Assembly: GCF_020085105.1 (NCBI RefSeq)
Contig: NC_058063.1
Location: forward strand, 6,048,501-6,112,500
DNA from: Siniperca chuatsi
Lineage: Eukaryota > Chordata > Actinopteri > Centrarchiformes > Sinipercidae
Reading direction: 5' to 3'
DNA length: 64,000 nt
In this document: one piece after another, positions 27,624 through 64,000 of the stretch
How the letters are laid out: each line of letters opens with the position of its first letter
Position numbering within the stretch: position 1 is the first letter of the stretch
Translations under genes and position numbers: made by a program
Notes under the pieces: model-generated
What the model was told of the DNA's origin: nothing
Database searches by the model: none
The model's input: only the letters and a program-made list of their open reading frames with translations

Positions 27624-30600
27624 TTAGATTTGATTGGTTTGGGGATCTATCACCAGAGTGATTTTACAGTTGTCTTCTTCCTCTGCCGGGATGTACAAGT
27701 TATGAACAGTGCTCTGAGGAAAAGAAGAAGAAAAGAATTTAAAAAATGCTAGTGTGGTACAGTGTGGTATTTAAAAAAAATATTCTATAAATTTGTACAA
27801 TTGTTGAGATTATAGGCAGGTCTGGTTTTGAGAACTGGTGAAGAAATAAGTTGTGAGGCTGAATTTTATGGTGTTTTCGGTGCCATCATATTTATCAGCT
27901 ACTCTTGTTATTTTGTCCTCTCACTGCCTTTATTGCTGTTGTTGTTAAAGCAATGGTTGGGTCATTGGGGCTTACTCGCTTTTTTTGCTAAGAGTTAGAG
28001 GAGAAAATTGATACCACTCATGCCTGTACCCTAAATATCGAGGCGACCACCAGCAGCCTGTTAGCTTAGCTTAGCACAATGACAAGAAACAAGGGGAAAC
28101 AGCTATCCAAAAGGTAACAAAATATGTCTACCAGCACCCCTAAAGCTCACTAATTAACACTTTATATCTTGTTTGTTTATGCCGTCCAAAAAAGCTATTG
28201 CTTGGCCAGGTGCTGTGTCTTGCTGGAATCTTGTTGTCACTGTGAGGTTGCTAGGCAACCAGATTCCAGGAGGTTACTGCGCGAAGCACAAAACCACAAT
28301 GTGTCGATTTTACGTACGATACTTAAAGTAAGCTAACTGGCTGCTGGCGGTAGCTTCATGTTTACCGTGCAGGCATGAGAGTGGTAACGGCCTCCTTATC
28401 TAAGTCTGAGCAAGACGGCGAATAAGCGTACTTCCCAAAATGGCATACTGTACTTTTTCTTTAATAATTTAACCCAGAATGATTTTTTTTTTTTTAAAGC
28501 AGTCACCTTATTGTTGTTGTCAGAAATATCGCTGAGAAGGTCTCGAGGTTGTGGCACTTTGGGGAACATTTTTTCCTTGTTTCTGTACAGAGAGAGTTAA
28601 ATATCAGAGGCAAACAAGAAGACAACTAAAATCAATAGCACCCACGCCAAAAAATTTAAGACTTTACATACTTGCTGAAATACATAAAAGTCAGGGCTGC
28701 CAGGCCAGCAAACATCAATGGGATGATAATGGAAGTTAGGATTAGGATCATTTTAGGATCTGTATCTGCATCTGCAAAAACATCAGTAACATTTTGATCA
28801 GCTGAGAGTGACTTATGCAGCCACAGTGTCTTACGTTTCAAGTACACGTTACAAAAAATGTAACAAACAGTCTCAACTTTAGGGGGGTAGAATGCATTTC
28901 TGTCCGCCAGAGTCATTCTTAAAACAACCGCCAGATGGCAAAATAAGTATTTTTTCAAATCCTATACTTAGTGGCTTTAAACTGCTAGACAGTCAATTTT
29001 GCAATTAAACTCTTCAACAAAATAAGAAAATAGACAGAGAGACAACAACCATACCAAAATACTTCTCGTCAATCCCTGTCGTGTATATTTTCCTCCCTCC
29101 CTGCGTCTCAGCTTTAATAGCCATGCGGTACGGACAGTGAGGGACCAGGACCAGATCAACTGATGTGTTACCCTCTACATCTTTAATCTGTAAATAAATA
29201 AATAAATTAATTAATTAATGATGGCGCTAGATGAAAAAGACCAGCAAAGTGATTACAATTCTTCCTGAGGGGAAGATGAATGTCCAAATTTCATTGCAAT
29301 CCACCCAATAGTTGGAAAGACATTTCACTCAAAATCACAAGTGTCAACCTCATGGCGGCGCTAGACGAAAAGCCGGGGGATCGCCAAAGTCAGTACAAAA
29401 TGTGGTGCCAATCTGTCAAGTAGATGTCAAGATATTTCACAGGATAAGTGGAAACTCTGACCAGCTGGTGGAGCTTCAGGAAAAGTCATTAGGGTTCATC
29501 TAGTGCGGACCATGGATATGTGTACCAAATTTTACAACAATCAATACAGTAAAAGGCAAAAGTGGCAACCTGTTTTAGTGTACTGAATTTGTGATCCCTA
29601 AAAACAAAAAACTTAAAACGTTGCGGAGTCCTTGACCACTAGTAGCACTATAGAGCAATGTTTTTCACAAGTTGAACCTCTGTTTTGTTAGTACTGTGCA
29701 TGCACACGAGGAGCACGCGGGGTGCGACGCAATTCACAGACTGCCGCTAGTTTCACACTATTCCACTGATCGACGGTCGGTAGCGGTAATGCACCAAGAA
29801 TACATAGCAATGCGCCAACAAAGGCAAGAAAGAAGACTGCAAGCTTCCTTAAGTGATCTTGTGGAAATTTCATACAGGGAAATTCAAACCACATGAATTC
29901 ATACAGATGGTTTTCAAAGTAAAATATTTCAATGCTAGAACTTCAGTGGTGTTTAAATTTCTACATGAAGTATTCAGTAGTGGTTCAATTTTACAATTAG
30001 GTATTCAGTTGCTTCTAAGATTCTGATTATCACGGCTATTATTTGCATCCACTGAAGTCTTATATAGAGATTAACAGACTAAACAAGATACAGCTTGAAT
30101 TTAAAAACATTAGATACAAACATCCAAATATTGTACTGTTGTGTCTGTTACCTTTCTGTCATTACACTCAGTGTAAATAATTTGAAACTTCCAATCAGGC
30201 AGACTGACGATGTCAGGAGCAATCCACCTGATAATGAATTTATCCTCCGTTTTAGTGACTGTCCACTCAAGGGGAGGAAGTTTCACTGTACATAGAAAGA
30301 CATTACAGAGAGATAGTAACAATCCAGTCATACACAATAATAAATTGCTGTAAATCAACTAAAGTCTCTTAAAACTCCCCCTAAAGACACACATACACAT
30401 ATTGTTGTTCCCCTAAAATGGCTGCATTGTGTGTTGTCCAAAGTTTTGTATTGTGTCATACCCCACATTACACAAGTACATACACCCAGACAGACACACA
30501 AACATACACATATCCACACCACGACAACTGCTAAAACATTTCTGAGAAAGGACAGAGAGCAACTTCTCTTAAAACTCAGAGTGAATGTGGAAGCGCAACG

Positions 30601-33600
30601 TATTTCAACAGAATGTTGATACTAAATCAGTACTGTCAGTTCACTTGCTGCATACCACATTTATTAAACTCTTTCCTGAAGGTGTTCCTGACAGGTTTGT
30701 TGTTCAGCGTTCCGTTAAACAAGATAATGATGGCCTGGGTGAAATGCCCCTGCAGATCACAACCAGTCCTGGTGCTGTTAGTGTAACTGTACGATGAGCA
30801 CTCTTGTAAGACGGAAAGGGCATCGTTGTATATAGATGTTCCCAGATCCTCATTCTGTAACCTTGGAAAGATAAAGAAAAGGTGATTTACTTTCATGCTG
30901 CTCACTATTCCTGAAACACTAAAAGAAGTAAATTAACTGAACAATTAATTAATAAAATTAACAAACATTTGAATAAGCACAATTTTGCAGGGACACCATC
31001 AAACACAGAGATAAAACACTGTTCATTAAGTTAATAGTTTGACATTTTGGGAAATACACTTATTCGCTTTCTTGCGAGGGTTTGGTGAGAAGATCAATAA
31101 CACTCTTAAGTCTGTTTATTAAATTTGAAGCTGCAGCCAGCAGGTGGTTAGCTTAGCTTAGCATAAAAACTAGGGCAAACAGCTAGCCTGGCTCTGTGCA
31201 TTGATAACAAAATCCTCCTACCAGTACCTCTAAAGCTTTAATTAATACGCGATATCCTGTTTGTTTAATCCATAGAAAAACCAAAGTGTAAAAACCAAAA
31301 TTTGTGGCGAGTTAGGTGGTGTAACCATTTCTTTGCCGGGTGCAGTGACTTCCTGGAGCCTGCGCTGGTCGCCTGGCAGCCTCATGCTGATGACAAGACT
31401 CCAGGAAGTAACTGCAGCCACCCAAGAAATAATTCCACTACATGGGGTTGAACTATTTCTTTAATCCACAGAGACTTCAAAAACGTCAAAGAAGTATGGA
31501 GCTGGATGGTTGCACTGATTGATTAATCAATTAGTTTATCAACAGAAAATTACCCAAGTACGACTTTGAAACCTGCTTCTTATCCTTTTAGTCAATTATC
31601 TATTAATATTAAGTAAAAAAAAAACTAAATAACCTTTTACATGAGAGACTAAATGCTTGTTGTTTAGTTCAGCAATGAATACATTTGTTAATAACATAAA
31701 TGACCTTTCCTAGCAGAACTGATTACACTAAAACAGTGTCTGCCTCAATTCATTCTTTTATGTCAGAAAGAGGATCGCTGATTATCTAACAAACTGAAGA
31801 GGTCAGTTATGGCAGCTATGTACAGTATTAACATTAACTGTGTTTGTCAGTAATGCGGGCAGATGGGACCTATGAATTGTCCAGTCACTAGAGGCCATGA
31901 GCCGCAAAAAACCAACAAAGAAATAAGGGTGACATGTTCAGTAATGGCTACAGAGTGGCTCATTTATGTGTTTTAATAGTCTTTGGACAATAGAGCTCTG
32001 TGGCAAAGAGGAATAAGATATATCACTATATCAGGCTTCACAATCCTTTTTAGTAGGATTAGTAGTAATTTCCTCAGATGGTATGCGTTGATGTAACCTC
32101 GTGAATTTAAAAATAGATTGAATATATTGAATGTTATAGAATATTGCTGATATTTTCGAACCTACAGTTTTAAAATCAATACAATGGTACCAATTTTAGC
32201 ATTTGATGGTGAACATCATTTTCAGCTTTGGATTTCCGGTTGTGCTACTGGTTGTGTGGTTATGGTTGTCCGGAGGTAACAGTCCACCCTTTTAAATTAA
32301 CGCTACATGACCGAACATGGCATGGGCCTCGAAGTATAAGCCTCACACAGTCAATAAACGATGCCTAAACTCAAACTGACGCCCGTCTCAGGCCTGGACT
32401 GCTGAGCCACTAAACATGAGGAATTTTAGCCTTCACTGAACCCTAGCTCATTACCTCCACTTGGGTTCAGTCTGGCTCTTACTGTATGAGGCAAAACCAA
32501 ATTAACTGTGTATCAGGAAGTATTGCAACACAGCTTACTCACATATACAATACTGTGTAATGGTGAGTTTCAGTTTACTAATTACTCTGGGTCTACAGCT
32601 CTGCTTCCCATTGTCCTGTTATTGTGTAAGCACATAATGTAAAAAAAAAACAAAAACAACCCACGCATAGAAGAAACGGAGATCTGGAGCTTGACTGGCT
32701 GGGAGCCAGGAGCAGTGACTTTGTTTGGAGGAAAAGATGCAGCATTCCAATTTGTTCACCAGCTCTGGGAGGAACAGAGACACATACACACATCTTAATG
32801 AACAAACAAATCGCCCAGACATTAATGCAGTCCATATGTGGTTCAAAAGGTTTTAGCCCACATTTCTTTGTCTACTCCAAAGCATTCAAACTTTGAGAAC
32901 AAAATCGGGTCTTTTTAAGGGTAATGGTGAGCAAAATGACCTACCTGGGTACATGATGTTGAATAAAGCCGGCTTACTGTGTGTGCTATTACAGACAGTT
33001 TCAACCGACATCTGCAGAGATCCTCCTTCCATCACTATGAACTTACTCTGCCAGGGAGAAGTTTGTCCGCTCTGAATGCACCAAGAACAGAGAAACAGAA
33101 AAAAAAAAAAAACACACTCTAAGTGAACTACTAAATCATCATCAGTGAGTCAACCCAGCACTTTACTGTACATATAGCACGGCCACAGTCAAAAATGTAG
33201 TTGTGGAGTTGTTTAAGAAAAACACATACTAGCCATTTACAGTGGTGTGAAAAAGTGTTTGCCCCCTTCCTGATTTCTTACTTTTTTTTGCATGTTTGTC
33301 ACACTTAAATGTTTCAGGTAATCAAACTAATTTAAATATTAGTCAAAGATAACACAAGTAAACACAAAATGCAGTTTTTAAATGAAGGTTGTTATTATCA
33401 AGGGAAAACTAAATCCAAACCTACATGGCCCTGTGTGAAAAGGTGATTGCCCCCTAAACCTAATAACTGGTTGGGCCACCCTTAGCAGCAACAACTGCAA
33501 TCAAGCGTTTGTGATAACTTGCAATGAGTCTTTTACAGCGCTGTGGAGGAATTTTGGCCCACTCAACTTTGTAGAATTGTTGTATTTCAGCCACATTGGA

Positions 33601-34150
33601 GGGTTTTTCACACCACTGTATTAGTGGGATGCAGGAAGAAATCACTATATGCAATGTTATGGATCTTGTTATGGAAATAGATTTTTGGCAGAAAATTGAG
33701 TTCTGTAGCTGTACTTGCCATTAGGATAAATTCAATGTTGGTTTTGGTCTTTTTAGCGGATTTGCTGATAGTAATAAAATGATCAGATGCAAAATCGTAT
33801 ACAATCTAATGCACACCTGCACAATTCTGAGGTAGATATAGGTAGATATTTTAATTTAATGCTAGTCTACTTCTGCTCTCTACGATCCAGAGGCAAATAT
33901 TGCACATTTTATTCCATTTTATTTATTTGACAGCTATAGTTACTAGTGACTTTGCATAATAAGATTTGACATATACAACAGATGATTAGCTACTAAATAG
34001 GAAACACTCCTATATATATATATATATATATATCAATAATATGATCATATAAAATATAATTTTATTATAATAAAACCATCCTATGCAGAATCTAGATGAT
34101 GATGAATTTAGTTTTCAGTAAGTTTTCTGGGAGCAATCCCTAACAGCTCG

Positions 34151-34185
<35 letters not shown>

Positions 34186-36126
34186 ACCTTTCCTGTCTCT
34201 CTCTTCAGCTATCTCTATCCGAATAAAGGCAAAAATTCCCCATAAAACACTCTTTAAAATACCTTAATATCTTACACTTGAATGTATTATTATAATTGGT
34301 GGGATACTTTGGTCCATGTGCTACATTAATCCCCAAATAATACCTCTGTGGAAGGGGACCAGCTCCCTCTGTAGATAAAAACGGCTCATTCTAAGGTAAT
34401 GAAACGATATTCTTATTTTCAACATAACAATAAACATTATATTCTGCCAATAGCAGAAATGGAATATACATAAATAGAATTACATTTAAATAGAATTACA
34501 TTTTATAAAATGTATATGAAATATATGCATGCTCACATATTTTTCTTCCGTGGCATATGATTTCACGTCATACGTGCAGTTTTCCACTGCATGCTGTGGT
34601 GGTGCCCAGGACAACCGTAATTCAAAATCACTTATCCACAGTGCGGACAAATTTTGCGGTGGTAAGATTTGGCCTAAGGTGGAGAAAGAGAAAAGACTGG
34701 TAACATAGGATTTCAGCGAGCCTTTAATAAGCCTCTTGATCTGTGAACACCTTCCATTTATTCCTTTCATTCAGTCTGCTTATGTAAAATGATGAAAGAC
34801 TGCTTCTTTTTTTGTCCTTAGTTTACAGCAGTGCAGTGGAAGTATTTGTACATCCGGTCAGAGGAGCAGCTCTGCTTCAAGGAAATGTCTGAAATGCCAA
34901 AGAAAGTTTAGCAGACATTCAAAACAAACTGCTGGTGAACTTCTACCCTGCAAACTGCAAACTCATTTTCAAACTTGAAGTCAGGGATCATGTTTATGTC
35001 ATGAGCAATGACCACTGGCTACAGTTCCCCATGTTATTTTCTTTATCTTTGACCTCTCTATCAGGTCTGACCAGTGTCCCATATCACACTTGTATTCAGA
35101 AGGCTATATCCTAGAATTTTAACATTTCCAAACCAGCTCCAATATACATGACTGACTGTGCCCTTTACCTGCCCCATTCCTGGGTAACTTGAGGTATTTT
35201 TCACCCTGAACCCTAATTTTCCCATGTTTCTGAGCGAGGTGCAGCGCCAAAACTGGCTGCAATGTAATAATCCTTTGTCTGATGGTGTTGACACAAAATA
35301 AGTAATGGCAAGGTAAAAAAAAACAAATTTTGATGAAATAAAAAAAGAACAAAGTTGACAGGTTGTATCAAAGTGTAGCTCAGCAGCTTAGTACATGTTA
35401 AGATACATACATGTAGTTTAATTTGTCTGAGCACAAGGTTTTATTTTTTCTTATACTGCACCATGTTCTGTTTTGTTTGGAGGACTTCATTTCCCGGCTG
35501 CCCACTGCAGCACTCTCGCTCATACTGGGATAATCTCTCCTTGAATGAATCACTTAAAACACAAACATTGGAAAATAGAGTCCAGGCTGAAAAATACCGA
35601 AGTTAACCCTTTAACTTAGGTGGATTCTCGGCCACTTCTGTTTGGTCTTGCTACATTTGCCTGTGAGCTTATGTATCGTCATTTAATATTAAAATCCCCA
35701 TACCGTTCCTGCCTGCCTGGTTGTCTGTATTTGGGTCCTTTTCCTTTCCGCCTCGTAGTCTACACACAAGAGGTAACGGATTCTGGATGTGGATCATGTA
35801 TGACATTCATCTGCTGGAGTTCTTTACCGTCACAAAACAACTTTTCTGTGCTCTCTTTTATGAGTTTATATGTTTTACTTGGTGACATGCCCAACAGTGA
35901 TGAATGCCAGACGTGACGTCAAGATACTGTGAACACCATCACGTTTCTAGTAGGGAATTACTGGGAACAGTCCGTGGAAAAATTGGAAAATTCGTCAAGG
36001 CTTAGGGAATAACAAAAATAACTTAACACAGGTAGGCCTATGTATATTTTTCTTACCTGTTTGGGATTCCGATAGAAAGAGGCAGCTTAAAACGAACAAG
36101 TCCAAACTTCGAAACATCCTGTTCAT
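27624..36126 (-). CDS. Class I cytokine receptor chain, IL13RA1/IL5RA/CSF2RA group (tandem paralogue of il13ra1)
   Basis: Ten coding exons, right to left: 36057-36126, 34537-34673, 32945-33071, 32665-32764, 30656-30861, 30152-30285, 29055-29187, 28672-28771, 28507-28582 and 27624-27713. All borders are AG/GT and phases chain without a stop, giving 390 aa, close to IL13RA chains. Exon 1 is a signal peptide (LFVLSCLFLSES). Exons 2-3 form fibronectin-III-like domain 1 (PPQNLSAL, LRLSWAPP). Exons 4-5 form domain 2 with the class I cysteine pattern (ECCIFSSKQSHCSWLP; C-x11-C in exon 5). Exons 6-7 form domain 3. The exon 7 WSXWS position reads GRKIYTTGIDEKY, so the motif is lost. Exon 8 is transmembrane. 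Exon 9 carries a Box1-like KMFPKVPQP. The last exon has one tyrosine (NLYIPAEEED). The exact orthologue is not settled; an IL5RA/CSF2RA-like chain is possible. Confidence 0.88.
27930..28470. mobile_element. Fold-back repeat copy B
   Basis: Lies in the last intron of the receptor gene. The arms begin with CTTACTCGC...AAATTGATACCACTCATGCC and end in the imperfect complement GGCATGAGAGTGGTAACGGC (28373-28392). Inner segments share GTTAGCTTAGCTTAGC and CTAATTAACACTTTATATCT with the copies near 23.5 and 31.2 kb. No coding capacity. Confidence 0.65.
29215..29560. repeat. Dispersed fish-type repeat
   Basis: Contains an internal near-duplication: GATGGCGCTAGATGAAAA (about 29220) and CATGGCGGCGCTAGACGAAAA (about 29352). 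The segment ATTTCATTGCAATCCACCCA resembles a common perciform dispersed repeat. Family unnamed. Confidence 0.5.
31030..31450. mobile_element. Fold-back repeat copy C, truncated
   Basis: Shares TTTGACATTTTGGGAAATAC, GTTAGCTTAGCTTAGCATAA and CAGCTAGCCTGGCTC with copy A. Only part of the second arm is present (CAGTGACTTCCTGGAG and its complement near 31400). It lies in intron 4 of the receptor gene. Confidence 0.65.
33240..33618. mobile_element. Tc1-like MITE, 379 bp
   Basis: Terminal inverted repeats CAGTGGTGTGAAAAAG and its exact complement at the right end are flanked by TA on both sides (33238-33239 and 33619-33620). Inner sequence such as TGGGCCACCCTTAGCAGCAA is typical of non-autonomous Tc1 derivatives in fish. 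It sits in intron 2 of the receptor gene and encodes no transposase. Confidence 0.85.
34013..34033. repeat. (TA)n microsatellite
   Basis: Short TA dinucleotide run in the receptor gene's second intron. Confidence 0.85.
34148..34187. repeat. (TC)n microsatellite
   Basis: TC dinucleotide run, with a CG interruption near its start, about 0.4 kb before exon 2 in plus coordinates. Confidence 0.9.
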
Positions 36127-36340
36127 GGTTTCTGAGTCGTATTTCTTACGTTTACTTTCCCACATCCGTTGGGTTGTAGGATGAAACGTTTTCCTTTGAC
36201 TATTCCCGCTCCCGAAGACGACCGTCTGGTGTCTGGCCTGCTGTCACGGTTTGTAAAACTGAAGGAAGTAGCCTTAATGTCCGTTTTTCAATTCGACTTT
36301 CGCTTCCAGCTTCTTTGAAAGAAGGCATGAACAAAGTTGG
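36127..36340 (-). promoter_or_regulatory. Promoter region of the 27.6-36.1 kb receptor gene with an ETS-IRF composite element
   Basis: Upstream of the start codon the minus strand contains GGAAGCGAAA at 36298-36307, a perfect GGAANNGAAA ETS-IRF composite element (the PU.1/IRF type used by myeloid and lymphoid genes). It is about 170 bp upstream of the ATG. No TATA box is obvious. This is motif-level evidence only. Confidence 0.45.
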
Positions 36341-38291
36341 AGTTGGGCGGAGTACTTCCCTTTACACTCGACTGTACAAAAATGTGGGAGGCCTGTTGGA
36401 GAAAAGTATACATTTTGCCCTGCGGTAATACTGAATAAGAACAGTCCCTGTTAGCTATTTAAAACTACCTTATGAGTACAAGACAAGTGTAGCAGGTAAC
36501 TAGAGAGTAGGCTAAACATAAACTCGGTCTCCATAAGGAATCCTGTAGGAACTACAGCGCAGGCTACCTTAAAGGGACAGCTCACCCCAAATTCTCAAAA
36601 ACTCAACAGCAACGTCTCTTTCCAGAAATCATGACCCAGGTACTCAAGAGAATCCACAGATTTGTTGTGAGCAGTTTCATGTAGGAACTATTTTCTTTCT
36701 ACCAATAGCTTCAGTTTCAGTTTAGTCCTATTTTTTTTTCTAAACAATGACCACACAGAGAACAGAAATGAACCACTGATAACCAGTACCATGCAATCAC
36801 AACCATGTAACACATTTTTAATATCTTTCTTTATTCTCTATTAAAGTAGTAAAGAAAAATCGTCAACAATCACCCAACAAATAGTGTTGGTAAATGCAAC
36901 AAAACAGACAAAAAAAACTTCCCTCAGTTTAAGGAAGGAGGAGTTTGACATGACATTTTGGATTTGGGTGTGTTGGTGAATGAGAAAGTAGACCAAAGAT
37001 TGCACAAAATCAACAGACTGACAGCCAAGTTGCAATAAGTTTAATATATGCTCAGCTGTGTACACAATTCTCTATCACTGTGTACAAAGAAGAAAACATT
37101 GTTTAACACCACAAGTCAGATTTGCAAGAGACATATATGATCAACTGTTTTAATAAAATTATTATTTCCATCCAAAATATACAAGACATTTGGCATCTAG
37201 AGCTATCAGTGTCTGCCAGAAAAGTTCATGCAGGTCAATTCATTTCCATTTGACAACAAAGTCTAATTCCTTTTGACATGCACTAATAATGGGTTAACAG
37301 AGGAAATAAAAGTGGAAGTAAAGATGCTAAGTTTTCTTCCAAGATTAGATATTCAAATTTCACCACAGCTGTACCTCTTCATTAAATTTCTTGTCTATTT
37401 CTTTATTTTCGGATAAGATTAAATGATTTCCAGCACTAACACAAGGGCACCCCATAAGACAATGTTTGTAACCATGCCAAATAGACAAAACAAGTTGTTT
37501 TCCTCATTTGGGGGCTGATACATGTGTGGAGGTCAGGAGAGCCACAGCAGCTCTTAGCTTGCTGTGCAGTCTTGAGATCATATTCAGTGGTAAGAAGTAT
37601 GTGGTTTCCCACCTCTTAGGTTATTGCTTCTGGCCTATTGTCTAGCTTCAATGATGGCAGTCTTTCCCCTCTTCCTATTTTTATTCCTTTGTGATCTCTT
37701 AAATGTGTACAGCAGATATCCAAAGATACACCAGCTCCTCTTACGGGTACGGTGCCCAGTAAATAGCTTCCGCTGGCCCACGTGCAGTCCTCCACGCTAT
37801 CCAACCAAACAACAGGATAAGGGCGGACCCCTATCCTTGTCTTCCTCCTCAGTGCTAAACGGGAAGATATCAGCACAGTGCAGGCATGACAAACTCTCCT
37901 GTCCTGTTTGTGTTTCCGGGTCCATAGCTGGGCGGCTTTTTAAAGGTAGTTTCAAGGATTCAGTGCATTTTATCTTATTTTATCGTATCTCGTCCATGAC
38001 AGGCCTCAGCAGCATGCATCTGTACTACCTTAGAGAGGATCTTAACAGCAGCTGAAAATCTTGTTTTTGCTAACCTCTGGTGGTGGAAGTTCTCACCTGG
38101 CTGCAGTGATACAGAATTGTATTCAGATCAGTCATCTCCTGACCACACCTGTCAAATGTGCAACAGACTTGAAACCACAAGAGATCAGTGAAACAAAGCT
38201 TTTCAGCCTGGTTACTCTGTAAATGTCCCTGATGAATTCGCTCAGAGTGGAAGTCCAGCTGCACTGCAGGCACTGCTGTGTACATGTACAG
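36341..38291. other. Interval between the two receptor genes (il13ra1 3' UTR plus spacer)
   Basis: About 2.2 kb from the upstream receptor start to the il13ra1 stop. No exon is seen. A probable dispersed repeat at about 36575-36730 contains GAGCAGTTTCATGTAGGAAC. The right part should be il13ra1 3' UTR. The open frames at 37616-38055 overlap on both strands and show no domain. Confidence 0.55.
37680..37685 (-). terminator. Candidate il13ra1 poly(A) signal (AATAAA)
   Basis: TTTATT on the plus strand gives AATAAA on the minus strand, 0.6 kb downstream of the il13ra1 stop. Other hexamers occur further left (near 36830), so the site used is uncertain. Confidence 0.35.
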
Positions 38292-38878
38292 TCAAGAGTT
38301 TTGCTGGAGGACAGTTTTTTCAGTTACAGGGGTAATATTGCAGGGTTCAATGGGTTCTGGCACCGGTGTGTACAGACTCCCTGTTGTGGTCTGAAAAATA
38401 GAACAGTGTAATGAGTGTTTGTGGAGACAGAGGGAGCAGGTGAATAGAGTATACACATTTTCATTTGTTCCTAAAATTTACCTTAAGTTCTTTGTTTCCG
38501 TTCATCATCATTTCCTTGAATATTGCCGAAGGATCTGGTACGATGGGGCAAATAATGGCGCTGTGTCTACAAGCAGACACACCACAACAAGCATGTCAAT
38601 AACAGAAAGCAACAACCAGCACACAATGTTTCCACCACCAAAATATAATATTTTGAATATGTCAACAGGCAGATATTTTTTCTTTTGGCCCAGGCTCTGT
38701 TAATTTCTGACCCGGCCTCTGTCATGCTGCTGCTGCACCCCCCGATATGGAGAATATCGATAAATTGTTGAGAATTCTTACATTTTGACAGAGCGTTTCT
38801 ATTTTAACCGGCGCAGTTTTTTTAGCCTTTACGGCAGCGGTTTAGCGGCCTGCCAGTCGAGTCAGTGAGTGAGGTAGG

Positions 38879-38922
<44 letters not shown>

Positions 38923-41900
38923 CACACACACACACAGAGTAGAGACTAGTGATGGGATTTATGGCTCTTTGAGGGGATCCGGATCTTCGCGATCCGTTCC
39001 TTTCAAAGAGCCGTTCAAAAGAACGATTTATGGCTCTTTTTAAATATTTAGTCAGTTTTAAGAAGCCAGCTTGGGGGCATCTCAGTTTATCCTGGAAATA
39101 ATCACTGGTAGGAATGATGAGGTGAGATTTGTAGTCAAATAATTAAAACTCGGATATCACACACCAATATCTGAGTTTGAATTATTCTGAAATTTCTTCG
39201 CGAGAAAAGTGCACCCAAATGCTGCTCCTTTTCCTCTGGCTCATTTTCAGATGTGTCACGTGTGTGTCTTCTTCCTTTCAAGTCCGAACGACCGCTATTA
39301 CTGACGTTGGCACTGAGACAGAGAGGCAATCGCACGTGTTTTTTTTTTTTTTTTTTTTTAACTGGAGTAAGCATGTGACGGCAGCGCACACACGCCATGG
39401 CTCCGCTCCTACCCAATGACAGAGGAACGCAGGTTTTTTTCCACTGGAGTACTCATGTGAAGGATGCGTGCACAACTAATAACTAATATCATCATGCTAT
39501 AAAGGGTTGGCTTGCGCTGGGTGCGCCCCTCCCCCTATAACTGTTCTGTCTCGCGGAGGAGCTCATTTGTGTGCATCTGTTTGAAACACGCATAGGAAAA
39601 AAGAACGACAGAAAGAACGGCTCCCCTCCAGCCGCGACTCGGCTCCCATCGTTCATGTTTATGAGCCGTTCAAAAGAATCGGTTCGTTCGCGAACGTCAC
39701 AACTCTAGTAGAGACGAGTCGAGTCGGAGAAATACTTTCACATGGCGGGAGCTAAAAAGAGAAAAGTAGACAGCGGAAACAGCTTTTAATCAAGAATGGA
39801 CGGTCTCTTACATGTTCAATCTTCCCACAGGCTGTTCAAAACCAGTATGTCTCATGTTCCAAGATTGTGGCAATCATTAAAAGTGGCAATGTTAAGCGCC
39901 ACTACGACAGGTTAACAAGGGGGACAGATTTTGGTCATTTTGCTAACAAGAGGGATGACATCCCCCCTCAAATCGCCTATGGGGTATTACAACACAGGGT
40001 GGGGCGGGGCTAGTGGGTTAGCATGCTAATTTCAGTAGATATCTCTGCAACACAATACATGGACGACTTTGACATAATGTCATATCCGTTTCTTCTCCAC
40101 ATTCTGTTGATAAGGTTAGTTCATTTTTTTTGAATGTATTAAAATATAATTCTAGCCAAATCTTCCATATTGCTCCTTTAAAAACACTACCTCCCTGTTC
40201 CTGAGGGTGTTGCAGGTTTGTTTTGTTAATCTTTTTCCACTCACCCACACACACACACACACTCTCACTCTCTCTACTGATTCAACACTAAAGCACTCCA
40301 AGGGCAGCACAAGAAAGGTGCAGTTAAAAGTCACAGCAACATCCTTTGACTGTTAAGTTTCAGTGTTTGCCTGCTGGTGGAAAATAGATAAGAATTATAA
40401 TGTTTCTTCGTGTTAAAGGGCTTTCGTGCACAACAGATTTCCTAACAATCTGGTCATTAGTTTTTGAGAAACATGACTCACATGCATAACCTGTGCTTCT
40501 TGTCCGGTGTGATCAAAGGCACCCAATCAGCTTTTATCCAAGGTTTAGATGTTGCAATAATCTCAGTGACAGGTTTTCATTGTTGCAGATCAAATACTGT
40601 TTCACAAAAGGTTTGCTTTACATCGACTCTTGAAATAGATTGCCAAATTTGGTATAAAGCAATTGGGCACCCAGAAATGTGCTTTGTACCGTCTACAAAC
40701 ACTTTGTGGCAGGTAGGTAGAAAATCTTTGACTTGTGTCAAACTGTTCTCTTTCTAAAGCATACCTCCTGAAGCAGTAGCAGGACAGAATGACGCAGACA
40801 GACAGAATGGCGGGGATGACAATGGCAACCACAGTCAGTGTCCTGTCAAGAGGCTTATTAGTACCTGTGATAAACAACAGACACATTTTCTTCAGCTTTC
40901 AAGACATTTTTGCTCAAGTCAGAAGTTGTATACAAAACTCAAAGCCCCAAAGCATCCTAAACCCCAACCCAGTCATCCTGCTTGCACAAATCAAATTCTG
41001 GTCGGATGCTTCAACTCAATGTGTCGTTCAACTATTCATATGAACTGGCTTCAGTAGTACAGATAAAGTTAAAAGAGGTAAGTCTACTCTGTAAACCTCT
41101 GGGTCAAATCTTAAAGCAACCCTCAGTTTATTATTCTACTAAACTGTGACCATGCATGCAACAAGCTTTGAAAATACCTATTCAAATGTCAGTACTCATT
41201 CACTTCTATCTACAGAAAAATCACCAAACATGACTAAATAAAATATGAAAAGCAGAAACTGATGGCAACCAATACTGACTAAGTGATAAGTTAAAACAGC
41301 AATTACATGGTGGTTTGCATTTTCTCATGTTCTTTCTGTTGCTGTGGTACAAAGTAATTTCGATATCTGACATACATTAGCCAGCAAAACACAGTTTTTG
41401 CATCAGGATCTATTTTGTTATTTTTTCTGACAAGAGAAATTTTAACACTAAAGGGAAATTTCAATCCTGTATGAACTGATATCTATTCATACAAGCCATT
41501 AAGAACATTTTTTGAATAATATAGAGTACCTGGTGAACAAGAACATAATGTAAACCACTGTGTGTGTGCAAATCAAGGGATTCTATGACAAAAAAGACCC
41601 TTCAAATATCCATCTCAATATGTCATTAAGTATTATATTGTAGTATACAAAAGTTTTAAACTTGCTGGGGAAAGTTGGGGAAGATCATTTCACTTTTTCC
41701 CAGTGCTTGTTTCATGAGATTTCAAGAATCATGCCAATAAGGTATAAACTAGAAAGGCCGCCCTGGCAGTTGTATGCCTCCACCAGCCAAGTTGCAGTTT
41801 ACATCCATGTCTGTCCAGACTCATACAATATATAGTGAATACTTGGAAGGAATTTACTAAAAGTGATAAAGTGTATTTTCTGGCTAAAGGGAAGTTATCA

Positions 41901-44900
41901 CTATACTGAAGTTACAAATGTATGATTCCAGTGAATATACATTTTTGAACTGATTTTGAAGGACTAAATAGGTACACATTCTTATAGAGTATAGCTACAC
42001 AAAAAGTTCTGCTTTGGTTTCCTCCTGGCATTTTATGAACTGTAGTTGAAACTCACTCACTCACAAGATCACGATTAGCTAGACGCTTACTCATTCTGTC
42101 GTCCCTGTCAACATGTGTGTGACATCTGGAATCGCCGAATTCATTTTTAAATTATGGCTGAAAACCTCTTTAGAGGTCACCGTGACCTTGGACCTTTGAG
42201 TCAAAAGTGTCACCTATTCAGTGTCTGACCAACTGTGAAATATGGTCACAATCTCCCCTTTTGTTCCTAAATTATGGGGCTAAATAAAGGCCAAAAAAGT
42301 TTAGTTTTTCCAGGACATTATGATGTCACAGTGAACTTGACCTTTGACCTTTTGGGCCATCACTTCATCACTGTATCCCATTAAACATCTGTGTGAAATT
42401 TTGTCAGAATTGCTGCATAAATTCTTGAGTTATGACCAAAAAACGTGTTTGTCAAGGTCATTTGAGGTCACAGTGACCTTGACCTTTGACCTTTATCCAC
42501 CATATTCTAATCACTTCATCCTTGAGTCCAAGTGGACATTTGTGCCAAATTTGAAGAAATTCCTGGCGTTCCTGAGATATCACGTTCACGAGAATGGGAC
42601 GGACGTGAGGTCAAACACACTCAGAGAAATCAGTGTAAGTAAAATTGGTTGGACACTTACCGTAAGTTACAACTTCGCTGAAGTCGCTGAATATGTTTTT
42701 GCAATATATACCAGTCATGACTTTGGACTGGAACTCGTAAAGGCATCTTTTATCATAGGCCATCTGCATCGTAGGCTCTCCCTTCTTAGTGAAGTTCAGC
42801 AATACCTAAAAAATATTAAGCACATAAAATCACAGTGTTGCACTTTGTCAGGTATAGAGAACCTATGTGGCATTGATGAAATAAAAATGTAGTTGCCCAA
42901 ATTTAAATGTTTGGATATAAGCACAGACATTTTTGGGAATACAAATACATTTGTACTGCTGAAATACAAACTTATGTTCCAATATGTGGTATTTGCAACT
43001 GATAGACACCACGCTTAAATGTGAGAACATTCAGTGTCATTGTAGCAAACTCAAAACCTCATTACCTCAAGGAGGGAGGACTTTTAGTATTAATTTTAGT
43101 ATAAACAGCTGAATTTGACAACTTACTTGAGGCTCATTGCATTTCTTGTAGCGGATCTCGTATATCCAGACGCAATCTCTTCCGACCTCTGGAGGTGTCC
43201 AGTTCAGTTTGAGGTTATCTCCATCTTCTCTGATGTGCAGCTTTGGTGAAGGTACCACTGAGGAGATTGTAAAAGGACAAAAAAAAAAATATATATATAT
43301 ATTTTTTTTTGTACTTGGCTGCAAAAGATTAAAAACAAGATTCAATCACTGGCTATAAAAGTATTTTAACAGCAAATGTTTTATATTTATTTTCACAATG
43401 ACATCAATAATTAACTATTAGAAGTAACACCAACCAAGTACAGGCCTGAAGGTGCTCATTCCAGCTTCACTGTCCACAAGGATGCAGATGTCACACTCTG
43501 CAGCAACCTTCAGGGTACAACCATTCCTCATTCCACTGCTGAAAGGCTGATCACACACTTTTAAACCTTCGATAAGTTCCTGAGAACGTCCATAAACCCT
43601 GTAATACCAAAACAGGGAGGTGATAAGAGAAGTGGGCCGTAGGGAGGGCTACAGCTGGCACACATGCTTTATTCAAAGTATTTCACTTAAATGAAAACAG
43701 CCCAGAATTGGTTCCGTTTGCTCGCTTTTCAGAAAAACACTATGGATCCTGCAATTCCTTCAGTCGCCACTAGATGTTCATAAAGATCACAGATTATCTA
43801 CTGGCCATTAATATCTGTGTGGTCTAATAAATGTTCCTAAACGAATGCAATTCACAACCCCACCAGACCGGAATGAAGCATGAAAATCCCATCCACATGT
43901 AGGCTTTCTCGCTGCACTGCTGATGGCCAGATGAGTGCTTTGATCTAGAGATATAAATATTGTGGCACTATGTTCCTGTTTTTCCTGACTTCATGTGTCT
44001 TGTTTTAGAGGCTGAATCGCCAAAGAAATGAGACAGGAGGGGATATCTTTCTGCACAAATCACTCTCTCACAAATCACAAGATGGGCTTTACTGAGATTA
44101 AGAGGAACTATAGAAGCTATGCTAACCGACATGGTTTGTATAATGTTGGCCATCTTACATTCAACGACAAATGCACAACGTATGATATGAAAACAATGAC
44201 ATAGTCCCTCAGATAGAATTTCTTTACTGCACATATTTGGAGACGTATTGTGTCTGTAATTCTCACCTGTAGGAGAGCGTCAGGTTAAGATTCTGATGTA
44301 CTGGGATCCAGGAACAGTTCAATTCATTGGGGTAGATGAAACATTTGAAGTCCTTCACCAATTTAGCTGTACAGTAGAAAAGCAAAGGTGTCACCTACAT
44401 GTAGCAAGATTCAAGTATAATAATAATAAAAGGAAGAATAATAATAACTGTATTTCTATAGCACTTCTAAAAACAATGTCTACAAAGTGCTTTACAGTAA
44501 AACCCAAAACAGTAGCAATACAGAACGAAAATAAAGGTAATCTATGAGGTAAGCCAACTAAGAACAGATCAAAAACATACAAGTTCATATAAAAGCCAGT
44601 TTATTAAAGTCTGTTTTTAGAAGGGATTTAAAAGATGAAACTGATTATGCTAGCCTAATTTCCTCAGGCAGGCCATTCCACAGTACGGGCGCCCTAACAG
44701 AGAAAGTGCAGTCACCTTTAGTTTTGAGTCTGGACTGTGCAACAGCCAAAAGAGCCTTGCCCCGAGGATCTCAGGCTGCGTTCCGGCTCATAAAGAGTTA
44801 AAAGGTCAGCACTATAACCAGGGGCTAGACCTTTCTGTGCTCCAGCCAGTGCAGATGTGCTAATACTGGGGTAATGTGGTCTCCACGTTTAGTCTAGCTG

Positions 44901-47900
44901 CAGCATTCTGAACAAGCTGCAGATGTGAGATTTTTGACTGAGGCAGGTATAGAGAGAGTTGCAATTGTCTAGACGAGGTGAAATACAAGCATGAATTACC
45001 GTCTCTAAATTAGCATGAGATGAAAATGACCTGATTTTTGATACATTTCGGAGTTGAAGGAAGCAGGATTGTACAACTCTCTTTACCTGCTCCTCGAAAG
45101 TCAGGTCACTGTCAAAAAATCACTCCTACGTTTCTGGCCTCACAAAATTAGACGATAAGTCACCTAGATCATGTAAGAAAAGATTTCTTGCACCAGTAAG
45201 AGTACGTAAGTATGACTTAATAGCATTATAATGCAGGACAAATAAAATACAAAAAAATATAAATCCAAAACCTAAGTACTGCATTAATGTCAGCTTTCAG
45301 CTTCTTACCCGTGGCGTTACTAATAATGTTTATGGACACGGCTTCACTCTCATTCGAACTGTTACAGGTCGGACTGCCATCAGTCAAAATGGTGTACGTC
45401 CAGCCACTGGGACCCGTCTCTTCTGTCAGACAAGTTTCTGTGAAATTTCTCCATTGTGTGCACGTCAGAGACTGGAAGAAAGACAAGATGGGCTTTACTG
45501 AGGATAATGCTTTCACGTATAGAAACACTTTGTCTTCTGCCTCAGGCTGTAGGTCCATGATTAAAAATAGTCAGAAATGTTCAAATCATACACATAGGGG
45601 CTTTAATTTTTCAGTATAAAAAAAAAATCAACTAGAGGAGACTTCAGATTTGCTTGCAATGAATAAAACAATGGTGATTATCATGTTGCTTTTATCAAAG
45701 TTACATTACAGCAGTGCAGCAATGCATCTTCAGGAAGGGACTGTGTGAAAAACAGGAAAACTCATTGTTCGTGTGTTCAATGAAACTCAGACAACAGCGA
45801 CCCATTTAATGCACCATTTTTAGCATTTTTTTTCGGTTTTTGGCATAATATTTATCCTCTGGGCTTCAAATCTAACCAACATATGGTTTCACAGTAATTT
45901 AAGGTTTGCATCTGTGTGGTTGTAGCTGTTGTATTTTTAGTTTTTTCGTATATATTAGACAACGGGCCTTATGCAAGAACATTTTTGTATTCTTATCCTA
46001 AACCTCTCTTGCTTTTTTTCTCCGAGGTTTGTTTGTACGAGTGTTCCAAGTCCAGATCCACCAAACTCTCTTAACTGCACCAACTTGTCTTCAATGGCTC
46101 ATTTTAACAAGATTAAGGCCTTGTGATAACGAGGAGGTGCGTATTCATGAGTATCAAGCTTCATTCACAAACATGTCACACAAGAGAGGAACCGTGTGGG
46201 CTGTCGAAAGTCCTCGGACAAAACATTAGTCTAGCAAATTTATCGATGTCGACTCGGTAGTGGTGTTAGAGGACAGAAACAATTAGAAGATATTAATACA
46301 GCTGTGACGATGTGCCATCACAGCAGCGCTGTACTGTGACAGACATAAAGACAGAATGGTTTGACCTGAAGTTCGATGCTAAAAACATCTTTCTAGGCAA
46401 AGTGGTCCATGACTAATATGAGAGGCGGGCAACGGGACGTGACATTCACAGAGATATTAGATGAGAGTATATTACAGCCTACAGTAGGTGATGTTACACT
46501 GTCCATTGTTATTACATAAAGACCCTGAGCCAGCTGTCAGAGTGAGAGAATTTTCCTAACAGCTAGTGAAATGTATACATTTGCTTTGCCAAAATATGCC
46601 AATAAAAATCATACAATCTAAAATATCTCTCAGTAAACTGCCATCCACGATGATGATAAAATGGTAATCATAACATTCATTTTGCAAGTTTGTTTCAGTT
46701 CCATATTTTATTTTAGTTAAGAGTGGTGTCATATTTAAACTCGAACGTCACTCAGATTAAAGCATTATGACTTGCAAGTCTGTACGTGACTCACACGACA
46801 GGTCTGGACCACTCGTGAATTTGTTCCTGAAAGAAAATTCTTTGAAAGAGAAAATTGGTAAATGCCACGAATTCTCTTAAATCACTCGTACATGCTGTCA
46901 TGGTTCGAGTTTGGGTCCTTTCCCTGTTTGTCCGGCGTACCAGCCGTAACACGTGCAACTTCAGAACCAATCCGTTTGCACAAGTGGGTCTTGCATGAAA
47001 CCTAATGTCTATATGTTACTGTATTTAAACACTGATTAAAGTGTGTGTTCTGTTGTCATAAAGGAAGAGCAGTCTTATGGCCTAGTAATAATCTAATCAA
47101 CAGATCTGTAGCTAATAAATGCATGGTTTTCAACAGCTGACTATTGGATACCTGAGATTCCTTGAATGCATCGCTACGGAAGATTTTTCAAAGTTGTTCC
47201 TTCTCGGTGAGTGAATGAATAGTCAAATAAATGAATTAATGACACCAAAATATAACCTTTTTTACTGGTTGGCAGTAATGTCATTTAAAGTGCGTGTGAT
47301 CTGTAGCTAATAACAAGCTTTTAATCCTCCACTGATATTGCTGCAACCTGAGGACCAGTTTCATCAGGTTTCCTACCTCTTTTGTTCCGTTCTTCATCAG
47401 GAAGTATTTGTATCCGACCTCACTGCCGTCCAGCAGACCGACTGGCTTCTTCCAGGACACGTTCACAGTAAACGCGTCGAGCCACTTATATGTCAGCCCT
47501 GTCGGTGGAGGAGGGTGACCTGTAGACGAGAAATGGAAAAAGAGGAATTCATTTTACCTGTTCAAAATGAACGAAACTGTCACAATGAGCTCTCATTAGC
47601 CTCGGTAATCAATGAATTCAATTTTTACATGTATTATTTGAATCACACATGCTACTGTTGTCATTTGACAACACTTGCTGATTGTTTGAAGACATTTCCA
47701 GATAGGGACCCATTTTTGCCCTGGGGCCCTTTAGGAGGTCAGCCGGTCATGATTATTTCCTAAAGTTTAAAATAGAAAATACATTTTCTGATTAAGATTT
47801 ACATTTTGGTGATGCCTCGTAAAAGACAATTCACTTCTGGCTGCATCTGACCGCAACCCACACACTGCGGGCCAAAGGTAGGCTAACCTGACGCAGTTTA

Positions 47901-49408
47901 TATTTCTGTTGCTCGTCTATTCTACAACAGACGTAATAGTAGTAGGCTACTCCTATCTTTTACTTCAGTAAAAGTAGCAGTAGCGCTCTGTGGCATTCAA
48001 GATTTCACTTAAGTAAAAGCACAAAAGCATTTAAGTATTTTTGTTTGTAAAGTAGTAACTCCAGCTGTCAGCTGAGAGATGTAATGGAGTAAAAAGTACA
48101 ATATTTCCCTCTGAAACATAGTGAAGTAGAAAGTAGCATAAGACTGAAATACGCAAGTAAAGTAAAAGTACCTCAACAGTGAGTGGTGTCACTAACAGGA
48201 AGGACGGCTCTTAATCTATCTTAACACTTTTCCTTTACAGGTTTACTGTAACGTCCGACAGATTCTCTCTGATCCCTCTCTGTTGCTGTAAGAATGTAAT
48301 TTTCCACATTCAAAACGAAATCCTCTCACTGTACCAGCTTTGAGAGAATCCAGGTCAAATCACCTGTAAACTCAATGAGCTTTGGAACATACACATTTTC
48401 TTCATATTTGACCTCTTAAAAGTTTTTCTTAAAAAAATATATATTCTTGTCGATACCCATGTAAGACTAATAGGGGAGGGAGGGTAACGTTACAGTAAAA
48501 TTAGTTAGCATAATTTTCTCAAAAGTTGTACAGCAAAATCTTATTTATTTATTTAACTATTTATTTATTTTATATCCTCGAAATGGACGTTTCAGTCCAA
48601 AGTCTGTTTCGGTAGCATATTGTCACATTTTCAACCAACCACATTCCAGTACAAGTCTTAATGTAGCCTTTAATCGGCGGTAGTTTGCTCCATTACATCT
48701 CAGAAATCTTTCGGGATTCTCGGTTGCGCTCTGCTCCCGCGCCGTAATTGCAACATAGAGGCGCAACCGCATCTACACCGCAAACAGCGCTGTAGGATTT
48801 GAATTTATATTTTTCCATCCAAAACACCCTCAAGTGTTTATCACTGTAAAAACCTCATACGTACAAACGCTAAATACAGGACAGGCAGCCTAAAGCCAGG
48901 AGCTAAATACCGAGAGAATCTCTAAAATACAGAAACATTTGAAATCATAAGTGAAACACAAAATCAAAACAGGCTAGTCGGCTAATAAATATAGTGCAAC
49001 AATTGAAGACAACCAAGAATTTAAAAAAATCACAGGGTTATAGTCCTAGTAGACTATTCTTAATCTAGGCTATTTTTTTTTCATCTCCAATTTTCATATG
49101 CCTTAAAATGGAAAGTCAAGCTCCATCATTTTGAATGATTTTACCTTTTATGTGAGACCGTCAAAAGGGTTTAAAGCGCGTCATTAAAGCTTGCTAATTG
49201 AACTTTGGTTCTGTTAAGCTAGCTCTGTCGTCGACTCCTTATTAAGCTCATACAAGATGCCATTTTCTTGTCAAGTGTCTCATTTAAACGCGAATAAAGG
49301 GATAATGAAGGAGTCTTTACCTGCTGTGCACTGGCATACCATTATTATGGCGTTGTATGTTAAGAAGGACAAAAACTTCCGAGTAAAGCCCATCATGTCT
49401 TCAAGCAT
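38292..49408 (-). CDS. il13ra1: Interleukin-13 receptor alpha-1 chain (class I cytokine receptor)
   Basis: Ten coding exons, right to left: 49321-49408, 47377-47519, 45309-45471, 44267-44366, 43435-43598, 43127-43257, 42661-42805, 40765-40864, 38482-38560 and 38292-38390. Phases chain with no stop, giving 403 aa (human IL13RA1 about 427). Exon 1 is the leader; ATGs at 49408, 49396 and 49393 are in frame. Exons 2-3 are fibronectin-III-like domain 1 (PPPPTGLTYKW, VSWKKP). Exons 4-5 are domain 2 (FKCFIYPNELNCSWIP, then C-x10-C). Exons 6-7 are domain 3, with WSXWS replaced by FSDFS. Exon 8 is transmembrane. Exon 9 has the Box1 segment IICPIVPDPSAIFKEM, close to the human IIFPPIPDPGKIFKEM. The tail is short with one tyrosine (SLYTPVPEP). 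The family binds IL-13, and with IL4R alpha forms the type II IL-4 receptor signalling through JAK/STAT6. Adjacent dock11 supports the name. Confidence 0.9.
38881..38937. repeat. (CA)n microsatellite
   Basis: CA dinucleotide run with one AA interruption, ending at the target site of the hAT-type MITE at 38947. Confidence 0.95.
38947..39707. mobile_element. hAT-type MITE, copy 1 (761 bp)
   Basis: Ends TAGTGATGGGA and (complement of the right end) TAGAGTTGTGACG form short inverted repeats, with imperfect subterminal symmetry around GGCTCTTTGAG, CGTTCAAAAGAACG and AGCCGTTCAAAAGAA. It is flanked by a perfect 8-bp target duplication GTAGAGAC (38939-38946 and 39708-39715), as for hAT elements. It lies in intron 8 of il13ra1. 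It is nearly identical to copy 2 at 49702 and has no transposase. Confidence 0.9.
41755..42625. repeat. Dispersed fish repeat rich in nuclear-receptor half-sites
   Basis: Repeat in il13ra1 intron 7 with typical fish-repeat segments (AAGTTGCAGTTTACATCCAT, TTTGGTTTCCTCCTGGCATT). Degenerate tandem sub-blocks each contain forms of GAGGTCACAGTGACCTTGAC. Perfect ERE palindromes lie at 42174-42188 and 42465-42479, and DR1 sites at 42338-42350 and 42480-42492. A long plus-strand open frame at 42344-42892 runs through it and overlaps il13ra1 exon 7 on the opposite strand; I do not regard it as a gene. Confidence 0.7.
44400..45240. repeat. Unclassified dispersed repeat in il13ra1 intron 3
   Basis: Starts near an AATAATAATAAC tract and continues through TATTTCTATAGCACTTCTAA, CAAAGTGCTTTACAGTAAAA, TCCTCAGGCAGGCCATTCCA and TTGCAATTGTCTAGACGAGG, a combination I recognise as a common dispersed teleost repeat. 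No intact frame; class not assigned. Confidence 0.55.
47930..48190. repeat. AAGTAAAAGT-rich dispersed repeat
   Basis: Multiple imperfect AAGTAAAAGTA/TACTTAAGTAAAAG units in il13ra1 intron 1, typical of a widespread fish repeat family. No coding potential. Confidence 0.5.
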
Positions 49409-49701
49409 CTGAGCGTCAATTCTGTCTGGAAACGAGTCAAGTCCCTCGATCCTCTTGCACTCCGACCAAGTAAAAATAAATATATTATAACCGTTTATGT
49501 TAAGCTACTGAATAGCCTACAATAGGCAAATACAGGCGACCGAGTGTAGGTGATGAAAAAGAAGGAGAAAAAAAATTTAATAGGAGGAAAAACGAAAATT
49601 CAACCTTGTCACTGAAGCACCTTGATAGTCTCTGTGAGTCTGAGGCTACCGGGAACGGGGCGGAGTCGGTGTGAGAGTGGGAGGGAAGCTGCAATGACAA
49701 C
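49409..49701 (-). promoter_or_regulatory. il13ra1 5' UTR / proximal promoter
   Basis: About 290 bp between the il13ra1 start and MITE copy 2. It contains a GC box (GGGGCGGAG, 49657-49665 on the plus strand). No TATA box at a sensible position is obvious. The MITE begins about 37 bp beyond the GC box, so the core promoter must lie in this short native interval or within the MITE. Confidence 0.45.
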
Positions 49702-50444
49702 TAGTGATGGGATTTATGGCTCTTTGAGGGGATCCGGATCTTCGCGATCCGTTCAAAAGAACGGCTCTTTTTAAATATTTAGTCAGTTTTAAGAAGCCAG
49801 CTTGGGGGCATCTCAGTTTATCCTGGAAATAATCACTGGGAGGAATGATGAGGTGAGATTTGTAGTCAAATAATTAAAACTCGGATATCACACACCAATA
49901 TCTGAGTTTGAATTATTCTGAAATTTCTTCGCGAGAAAAGTGCACCCAAATGCTGCTCCTTTTCCTCTGGCTCATTTTCAGATGTGTCACGTGTGTGTCT
50001 TCTTCCTTTCGAAGTCCGAACGACCCGCTATTACTGACGTTGGCACTGAGACAGAGAGGCAATCGCACGTGTTTTTTTTTTGTTTTTTGTTTTTTAACTG
50101 GAGTAAGCATGTGACGGCAGCGTGCACATGTCATGGCTCCGCTCCTACCCAATGACAGAGGAACGCAGGTTTTTTTTCCACTGGAGTACTCATGTGAAGG
50201 ATGCGTGCACAACTAATAACTAATATCATCACGCTATAAAGGGTTGGCCTGCGCTGGGTGCGCCCCTCCCCCTATAACTGTTCTGTCTCGCGGAGGAGCT
50301 CATTTGTGTGCATCTGTTTGAAACACGCATAGGAAAAAAGAACGACAGAAAGAACGGCTCCCCTCCAGCCGCGACTCGGCTCCCATCGTTCATGTTTATG
50401 AGCCGTTCAAAAGAATCGGTTCGTTCGCGAACGTCACAACTCTA
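49702..50444. mobile_element. hAT-type MITE, copy 2 (743 bp)
   Basis: Same ends as copy 1 (TAGTGATGGGA...CGTCACAACTCTA) and the same orientation, with a perfect 8-bp target duplication ATGACAAC (49694-49701 and 50445-50452). Differences from copy 1 are few: a short deletion near the left end and small changes in the T-rich core. It sits just upstream of il13ra1 exon 1. Confidence 0.9.
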
Positions 50445-63641: not shown

Positions 63642-64000
63642 CTAACGAATGAACAGTAAAGGCAAAGTAAAAAACGGGTTCACATAGATGTTTAAAAGAA
63701 AGTTTTCTACCAAATACTGTATTTCATTTAATTCCATGTTTCATTCATGACATAATCTAGTCATATTGACTTATTTTTGAGGAACGTTTTTGTAGAAACA
63801 CGTTACAAAGAAAGATAAAATATTACTCCATGTTTGGTAGCATGTGACTACCTAATAATAAATCACATGATGAAAGCAGAGACACTGTATACATGCTGCT
63901 GCCTCTGGTCTAGACGCCAAACAAATGTTTGAGAGATAAGCATTAGCTGTCAACCAACTGTTGCACCTCACAAATTATCTTTGTCCGTTAGCATTCCTCA

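Follow-up and report, generated by a model that had tools for sequence, protein, structure and literature searches.

We describe here a pair of class I cytokine receptor genes within a 64,000-nucleotide stretch of the Siniperca chuatsi genome (GCF_020085105.1, contig NC_058063.1, positions 6,048,501 to 6,112,500 of the forward strand), which we refer to as the window. The two genes, called A and B, are both on the minus strand and follow each other head to tail, with gene B running from 49396 to 38292 and gene A from 36126 to 27624. They form a true tandem pair, in which B is known and A is a strongly diverged receptor. We identify predicted gene B as fish il13ra1, and the reading of gene A towards which we tentatively lean is that it is an old, fast-diverged tandem sister of il13ra1. 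The models of both genes are exons joined at GT/AG on the minus strand, and are predictions from the DNA; they contain the following features.

27624..36126, minus strand: gene A, second class I cytokine receptor gene, 10 coding exons, 390 amino acids, tail of 51 residues from Box1 (exon joining, Pfam, shuffle test)
36057..36126, minus strand: gene A exon 1, 70 nucleotides, signal peptide, phase after it 1
34537..34673, minus strand: gene A exon 2, 137 nucleotides, D1, phase after it 0
32945..33071, minus strand: gene A exon 3, 127 nucleotides, D1, phase after it 1
32665..32764, minus strand: gene A exon 4, 100 nucleotides, D2, C-x-W region, phase after it 2
30656..30861, minus strand: gene A exon 5, 206 nucleotides, D2, phase after it 1
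30152..30285, minus strand: gene A exon 6, 134 nucleotides, D3, phase after it 0
29055..29187, minus strand: gene A exon 7, 133 nucleotides, D3, no WSXWS seen, phase after it 1
28672..28771, minus strand: gene A exon 8, 100 nucleotides, membrane span, phase after it 2
28507..28582, minus strand: gene A exon 9, 76 nucleotides, Box1, phase after it 0
27624..27713, minus strand: gene A exon 10, 90 nucleotides, tail and stop
38292..49396, minus strand: gene B, il13ra1, 10 coding exons, 401 amino acids, tail of 57 residues from Box1 (exon joining, shuffles, Box1, profiles, primer site)
49321..49396, minus strand: gene B exon 1, 76 nucleotides, phase after it 1
47377..47519, minus strand: gene B exon 2, 143 nucleotides, D1, phase after it 0
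45309..45471, minus strand: gene B exon 3, 163 nucleotides, D1, phase after it 1
44267..44366, minus strand: gene B exon 4, 100 nucleotides, D2, phase after it 2
43435..43598, minus strand: gene B exon 5, 164 nucleotides, D2, phase after it 1
43127..43257, minus strand: gene B exon 6, 131 nucleotides, D3, phase after it 0
42661..42805, minus strand: gene B exon 7, 145 nucleotides, D3, FSDFS replacing WSXWS, phase after it 1
40765..40864, minus strand: gene B exon 8, 100 nucleotides, membrane span, phase after it 2
38482..38566, minus strand: gene B exon 9, 85 nucleotides, Box1 VPDPSAIFKEM, phase after it 0, sea bass IL-13Ra1 reverse-primer site at 38515-38538
38292..38390, minus strand: gene B exon 10, 99 nucleotides, tail and stop

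All 18 introns of the two genes have GT-AG borders, and both frames are open throughout. A second in-frame ATG of gene B is present at 49408, four codons above that at 49396, and the start may be either. The rebuilt chains agree with an earlier sequence-only reading of this DNA, which had proposed 10 coding exons in each gene with identical intron phases (1,0,1,2,1,0,1,2,0 after exons 1–9), exons 4 and 8 of exactly 100 nucleotides in both, and a single domain order; the stop at 27624 also agrees, and the upper limit given in that reading was the ATG at 49408. The remaining exons are unequal in length (exon 5 is 206 nucleotides in A versus 164 in B), and translation together with alignment gives for both products a signal peptide, D1, D2, D3, a membrane span and, behind it, a short tail that carries Box1.

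The common phase plan had further been taken as a pointer to an old tandem duplication, and this part of the argument falls away, since the same phases are found in il13ra2 and il2rg of this genome. Both genes are on contig C14, where il13ra2 (E 9.6e-62 to human IL13RA2) has phases 1,0,1,2,1,0,1 over the seven exons read, and il2rg (17352953 region, E 1.7e-21 to human IL2RG) has phases 2,1,0,1 after the four exons read, its entry phase of 1 being deduced from the frame. The exon plan marks family membership and says little that is specific to A and B, and as a sign of tandem origin it is ruled out. The length of exon 4 is not universal, being 121 nucleotides in il13ra2, 91 in il2rg, and 100 in A and B.

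The predicted products of A and B are true cytokine receptor homologues. For both, the actual local scores against human IL13RA1 and CSF2RA were not attained by any of 300 shuffles, a membrane span and Box1 are present in each, and the paired D2 cysteines and C-x-W of the two align with those of il13ra2. For the Pfam fn3 domain (cut-off 25) A scores 31.4 bits and B 23.9 bits, the latter just short of the cut-off, and IL6Ra-bind lies just under its own cut-off in A. By eye, FSDFS is seen in B at the WSXWS position and no recognisable motif in A; this motif is degenerate in some class I receptors, and we base the class I membership of A and B on overall homology. A whole-genome search with PF09240 gave two matches, both in il13ra2 on C14 and none in A or B, a PDB sequence search with B gave nothing relevant, and NCBIfam, a prokaryote library, gave nothing.

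Gene B, as judged from its predicted protein, is the fish il13ra1, an already known gene. It resembles IL13RA1 in its neighbour and gene order, its Box1, its best profile, its three-domain ectodomain and short tail, and a sea bass primer site. Its Box1 agrees with that of human IL13RA1 at 11 of 18 positions (Box1 was compared throughout as ungapped 18-residue stretches cut out by eye), and it scores 43.6 bits with the IL13R profile (IL13RA1 and IL13RA2) versus 13.1 bits with the CSF2RA/IL3RA/IL5RA set. When every pair and triple drawn from seven human receptors is compared, it is IL13RA1 that lifts the score of B the most, and the CSF2RA/IL3RA/IL5RA triple ranks last among all 35 triples. The sea bass IL-13Ra1 reverse primer, as given in the available excerpt of PMC5440397, has 23 of its 24 bases in common with a site in exon 9, with 0 such matches expected by chance; the forward primer has no match with eight or fewer mismatches. 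Gene B differs from human IL13RA1 in that only 68 of 369 aligned residues are common to the two and FSDFS replaces WSXWS. Groupings of B with the three alpha chains and of B with IL13RA2 were rejected by the approximately unbiased (AU) test (p 0.027 and 0.018, respectively).

For gene A the nearest sequence in this comparison is B, with 69 of 366 aligned residues identical, and it has the short tail seen in IL13RA1. Trees were built with 12 rows, and further ones after dropping either A or B, after adding il2rg, from D2-D3, and from the membrane span and tail. The A+B grouping received support of 87/89, 97/97, and 90/88, with a long-branch warning from the tree tool. The first round of topology tests named 11 groupings, one of which was already in the tree and ten of which were tested; a clade of A, B and IL13RA1 was not rejected in any of four tests, and A with IL13RA1 in the absence of B gave p 0.019. 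The trees did not place A and B in two unrelated receptor clades, and by the trees an old tandem duplication, as the sequence-only reading had it, is the most likely origin of the pair. We infer that the sisterhood of A and B is real rather than a product of long-branch attraction, and that the split is old.

Several observations weigh against a tandem origin of A from il13ra1. The two long branches meet in A+B, and when one is left out the other falls unresolved; the tree of membrane span and tail leaves both unresolved, and A has no stable position across the trees built. Even B, when constrained to group with IL13RA1 alone, is rejected on the whole protein (AU p 0.039 and 0.027; 0.18 and 0.415 on parts), which shows how far such tree tests are strained. 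A column bootstrap finds A and B not significantly closer than B and IL13RA1 (0.25), A and CSF2RA (0.11), or A and IL13RA1 (0.10). Box1 of A agrees with B and with IL13RA1 at 4 of 18 positions each and is nearer to CSF2RA (8 of 18). The low identity of the two proteins proposed earlier holds, but Box1 does not stand out from it as a stretch of higher identity. As an IL13RA1-type Box1 is not found in A, we do not call this gene il13ra1, only a possible relative by duplication. Four-member profile sets score 37.8 bits on A for CSF2RA/IL3RA/IL5RA versus 19.4 bits for IL13R.

A less probable reading, to which we nonetheless give considerable weight, is that gene A is an anciently retained alpha chain of the CSF2RA/IL3RA/IL5RA kind beside il13ra1, with common beta as its partner and an IL-5-family ligand that has yet to be discovered in percomorphs. 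Of the two options that the sequence-only reading offered for the second gene, an il13ra1 duplicate or an IL5RA/CSF2RA/IL3RA-like gene, we take the former as somewhat the likelier. Gene A resembles these alpha chains in its three-domain ectodomain, its short tail, and a Box1 nearest to that of CSF2RA, and differs in that no WSXWS is seen, it lies beside il13ra1, it joins them in no tree, and no partner or ligand was found here. The human CSF2RA, IL3RA and IL5RA genes lie at Xp22 and 3p26, and A stands elsewhere. The grouping of A with the three alpha chains was not rejected in three of four tests, but was rejected in the fourth (0.030), as was A with CSF2RA and IL3RA alone (0.016).

The preference of A for the CSF2RA-group profile is not specific, because sets of mixed make-up perform equally well or outdo it (IL13RA1+IL13RA2+CSF2RA, 42.7 bits; IL13RA1+IL13RA2+IL2RG, 33.2 bits) and the human CSF2RA/IL3RA/IL5RA triple ranks only 20th of the 35 triples. 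Single-family pairs give 17.9 bits for IL13RA1, 16.2 for IL5RA+CSF2RA, and 14.9 for CSF2RA+IL3RA. When A is divided, the CSF2RA-group and IL13R profiles are near ties, both for the ectodomain (21.3 versus 19.7 bits) and the tail (19.0 versus 17.0 bits), and the raw local score with CSF2RA (198) is not above that with IL13RA1 (201). IL13RA1 and CSF2RA raise the profile score of A about equally (+3.1 and +6.0), the effect of IL5RA is neutral, and that of IL3RA is negative. These profiles give a clear placement for B and none for A.

Searches of the 718.8-Mb genome bear on both readings. With tblastn at E up to 1 there is no second site for A or B, the ten matches of each all being to its own gene; this excludes only close copies, as the search with A did not reach B, nor the reverse. 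Human IL5RA and CSF2RA match il2rg, il13ra2, and a stretch of C2 without assignment, and neither A nor B; with the matches falling outside A and B, tblastn by single exons has too little power to place A. Human CSF2RB gives four weak matches (best E 0.118), and common beta was not identified in this low-sensitivity search. We also observed that two of the CSF2RB matches, when translated, are further class I receptor genes, of EPOR/MPL type on C21 and of IL9R/IL21R type on C9 as judged by eye from Box1. A search with gar IL-5famA gave no match in the genome, a result that shows nothing.

In the portion available of Liongue and Ward 2007 (PMC1963337), il13ra1, il13ra2, and tslpr are reported in zebrafish, with no orthologue of IL3RA, GM-CSFR alpha, or IL5R, and the latter are suggested to derive possibly from duplication of IL13RA1, IL13RA2, or TSLPR. 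Excerpts of Yamaguchi et al. 2015 (PMC4690019) refer to candidates for common beta in teleosts, and report for the IL-3/IL-5/GM-CSF family one convincing candidate in gar, doubtful ones in cyprinids, and none identified in non-cyprinid teleosts; according to a passage of PMC8226699, CSF2RB is the more ancient form of GM-CSF receptor of the two, and makes its first appearance in fish. Genes named CSF2RA are listed in the accessible parts of data sets for Decapterus (PMC11047736), Atlantic cod macrophages and NK-like cells (PMC7588623), and largemouth bass (PMC5000712), in two of the three besides IL13RA1. These names look automatic, and as the CSF2RA and IL13RA1 entries of largemouth bass share a fold change of 2.91, both may be one transcript. 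Gene A may be the gene so named. In our literature search we came across no description of gene A as such, although this does not prove that there is none. It is doubtful, in our estimation, that A is an alpha chain of the GM-CSF/IL-3/IL-5 receptor family long overlooked in ray-finned fish, beside il13ra1 where that family would have arisen; this idea predicts an undiscovered IL-5-family ligand in percomorphs.

We consider it improbable that gene A represents a lone vertebrate lineage, derived neither from il13ra1 nor from the GM-CSF-group alpha chains and lost in mammals. The unresolved position of A near the base of the tree when B is left out and its similar scores with several families are consistent with this, but positive evidence is wanting and fast evolution gives the same pattern. 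Very improbable is an identity with il13ra2, il2rg, or crlf2, notwithstanding that the PDB search with A returns IL2RG entries only (best E 0.066), that groupings of A with IL2RG alone (p 0.134) or CRLF2 alone (p 0.167) are not rejected, that IL2RG lifts the pair-profile score of A by 4.9 (with a change of -1.1 in triples), and that A has a three-domain ectodomain and, over the seven exons read, the phases of il13ra2. A clear il13ra2 is present separately on C14, A differs from it in having a Box1 tail, and the AU test rejects A as il13ra2 (p 0.015).

Beyond the pair, the same strand carries pieces of a further gene upstream of gene B.

56838..63723, minus strand: pieces of a DOCK9/10/11-type gene (Pfam DHR-2, solved relatives)

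Of the six pieces run against Pfam, four match DHR-2 lobes and two of these pass the curated cut-off; lobe C was found at E 3.1e-12. Among solved structures, one piece comes closest to DOCK10 and DOCK9. The earlier claim that the receptors adjoin dock11 is borne out at the level of the DOCK9/10/11 type, and the neighbour is probably dock11 itself rather than dock9 or dock10; human DOCK11 presumably holds the same relation to IL13RA1. Far beyond gene A is an immunoglobulin-domain exon (293-688, minus strand, Ig_3 E 4e-7), KIRREL-like by eye, at a place where human presumably has other IL13RA1 neighbours. Two near-identical copies of a transposon-like element (729 of 767 aligned columns) are located at 38946-39706, within gene B intron 8, and at 49701-50443, approximately 300 bp upstream of the gene B start; each is flanked by 8-bp repeats (AGTAGAGA; AATGACAA), of a kind that we take to be made by elements of the hAT superfamily. 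Gene A intron 2 contains an interspersed repeat (window ~33240-33620, with translated fragments such as GPKFLHSAVK), which by eye is also found near il13ra2 on C14, at about 1050-1490 of the C14 stretch that was read.

IL13RA1 joins IL4RA bound to IL-4 or IL-13 and supplies a JAK through its Box1, and gene B would likewise join IL-4/13-bound Il4ra and bring its own JAK. Gene A, following the family pattern, would be a second short-tailed chain, with D1-D3 helping to bind a short four-helix cytokine, a JAK held at the changed Box1, and STAT docking left to a long-tailed partner such as Il4ra, Il2rg, or common beta; its natural role may be to serve one of several fish IL-4/13 ligands.

An alpha-type receptor directly beside il13ra1 offers a concrete case of the suggested duplication and is a candidate for the chain so far missed, and gene A provides a target for knock-out or a bait for the ligand. 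If A is a diverged sister of il13ra1, it bears on how fish have split IL-4/13 signalling.

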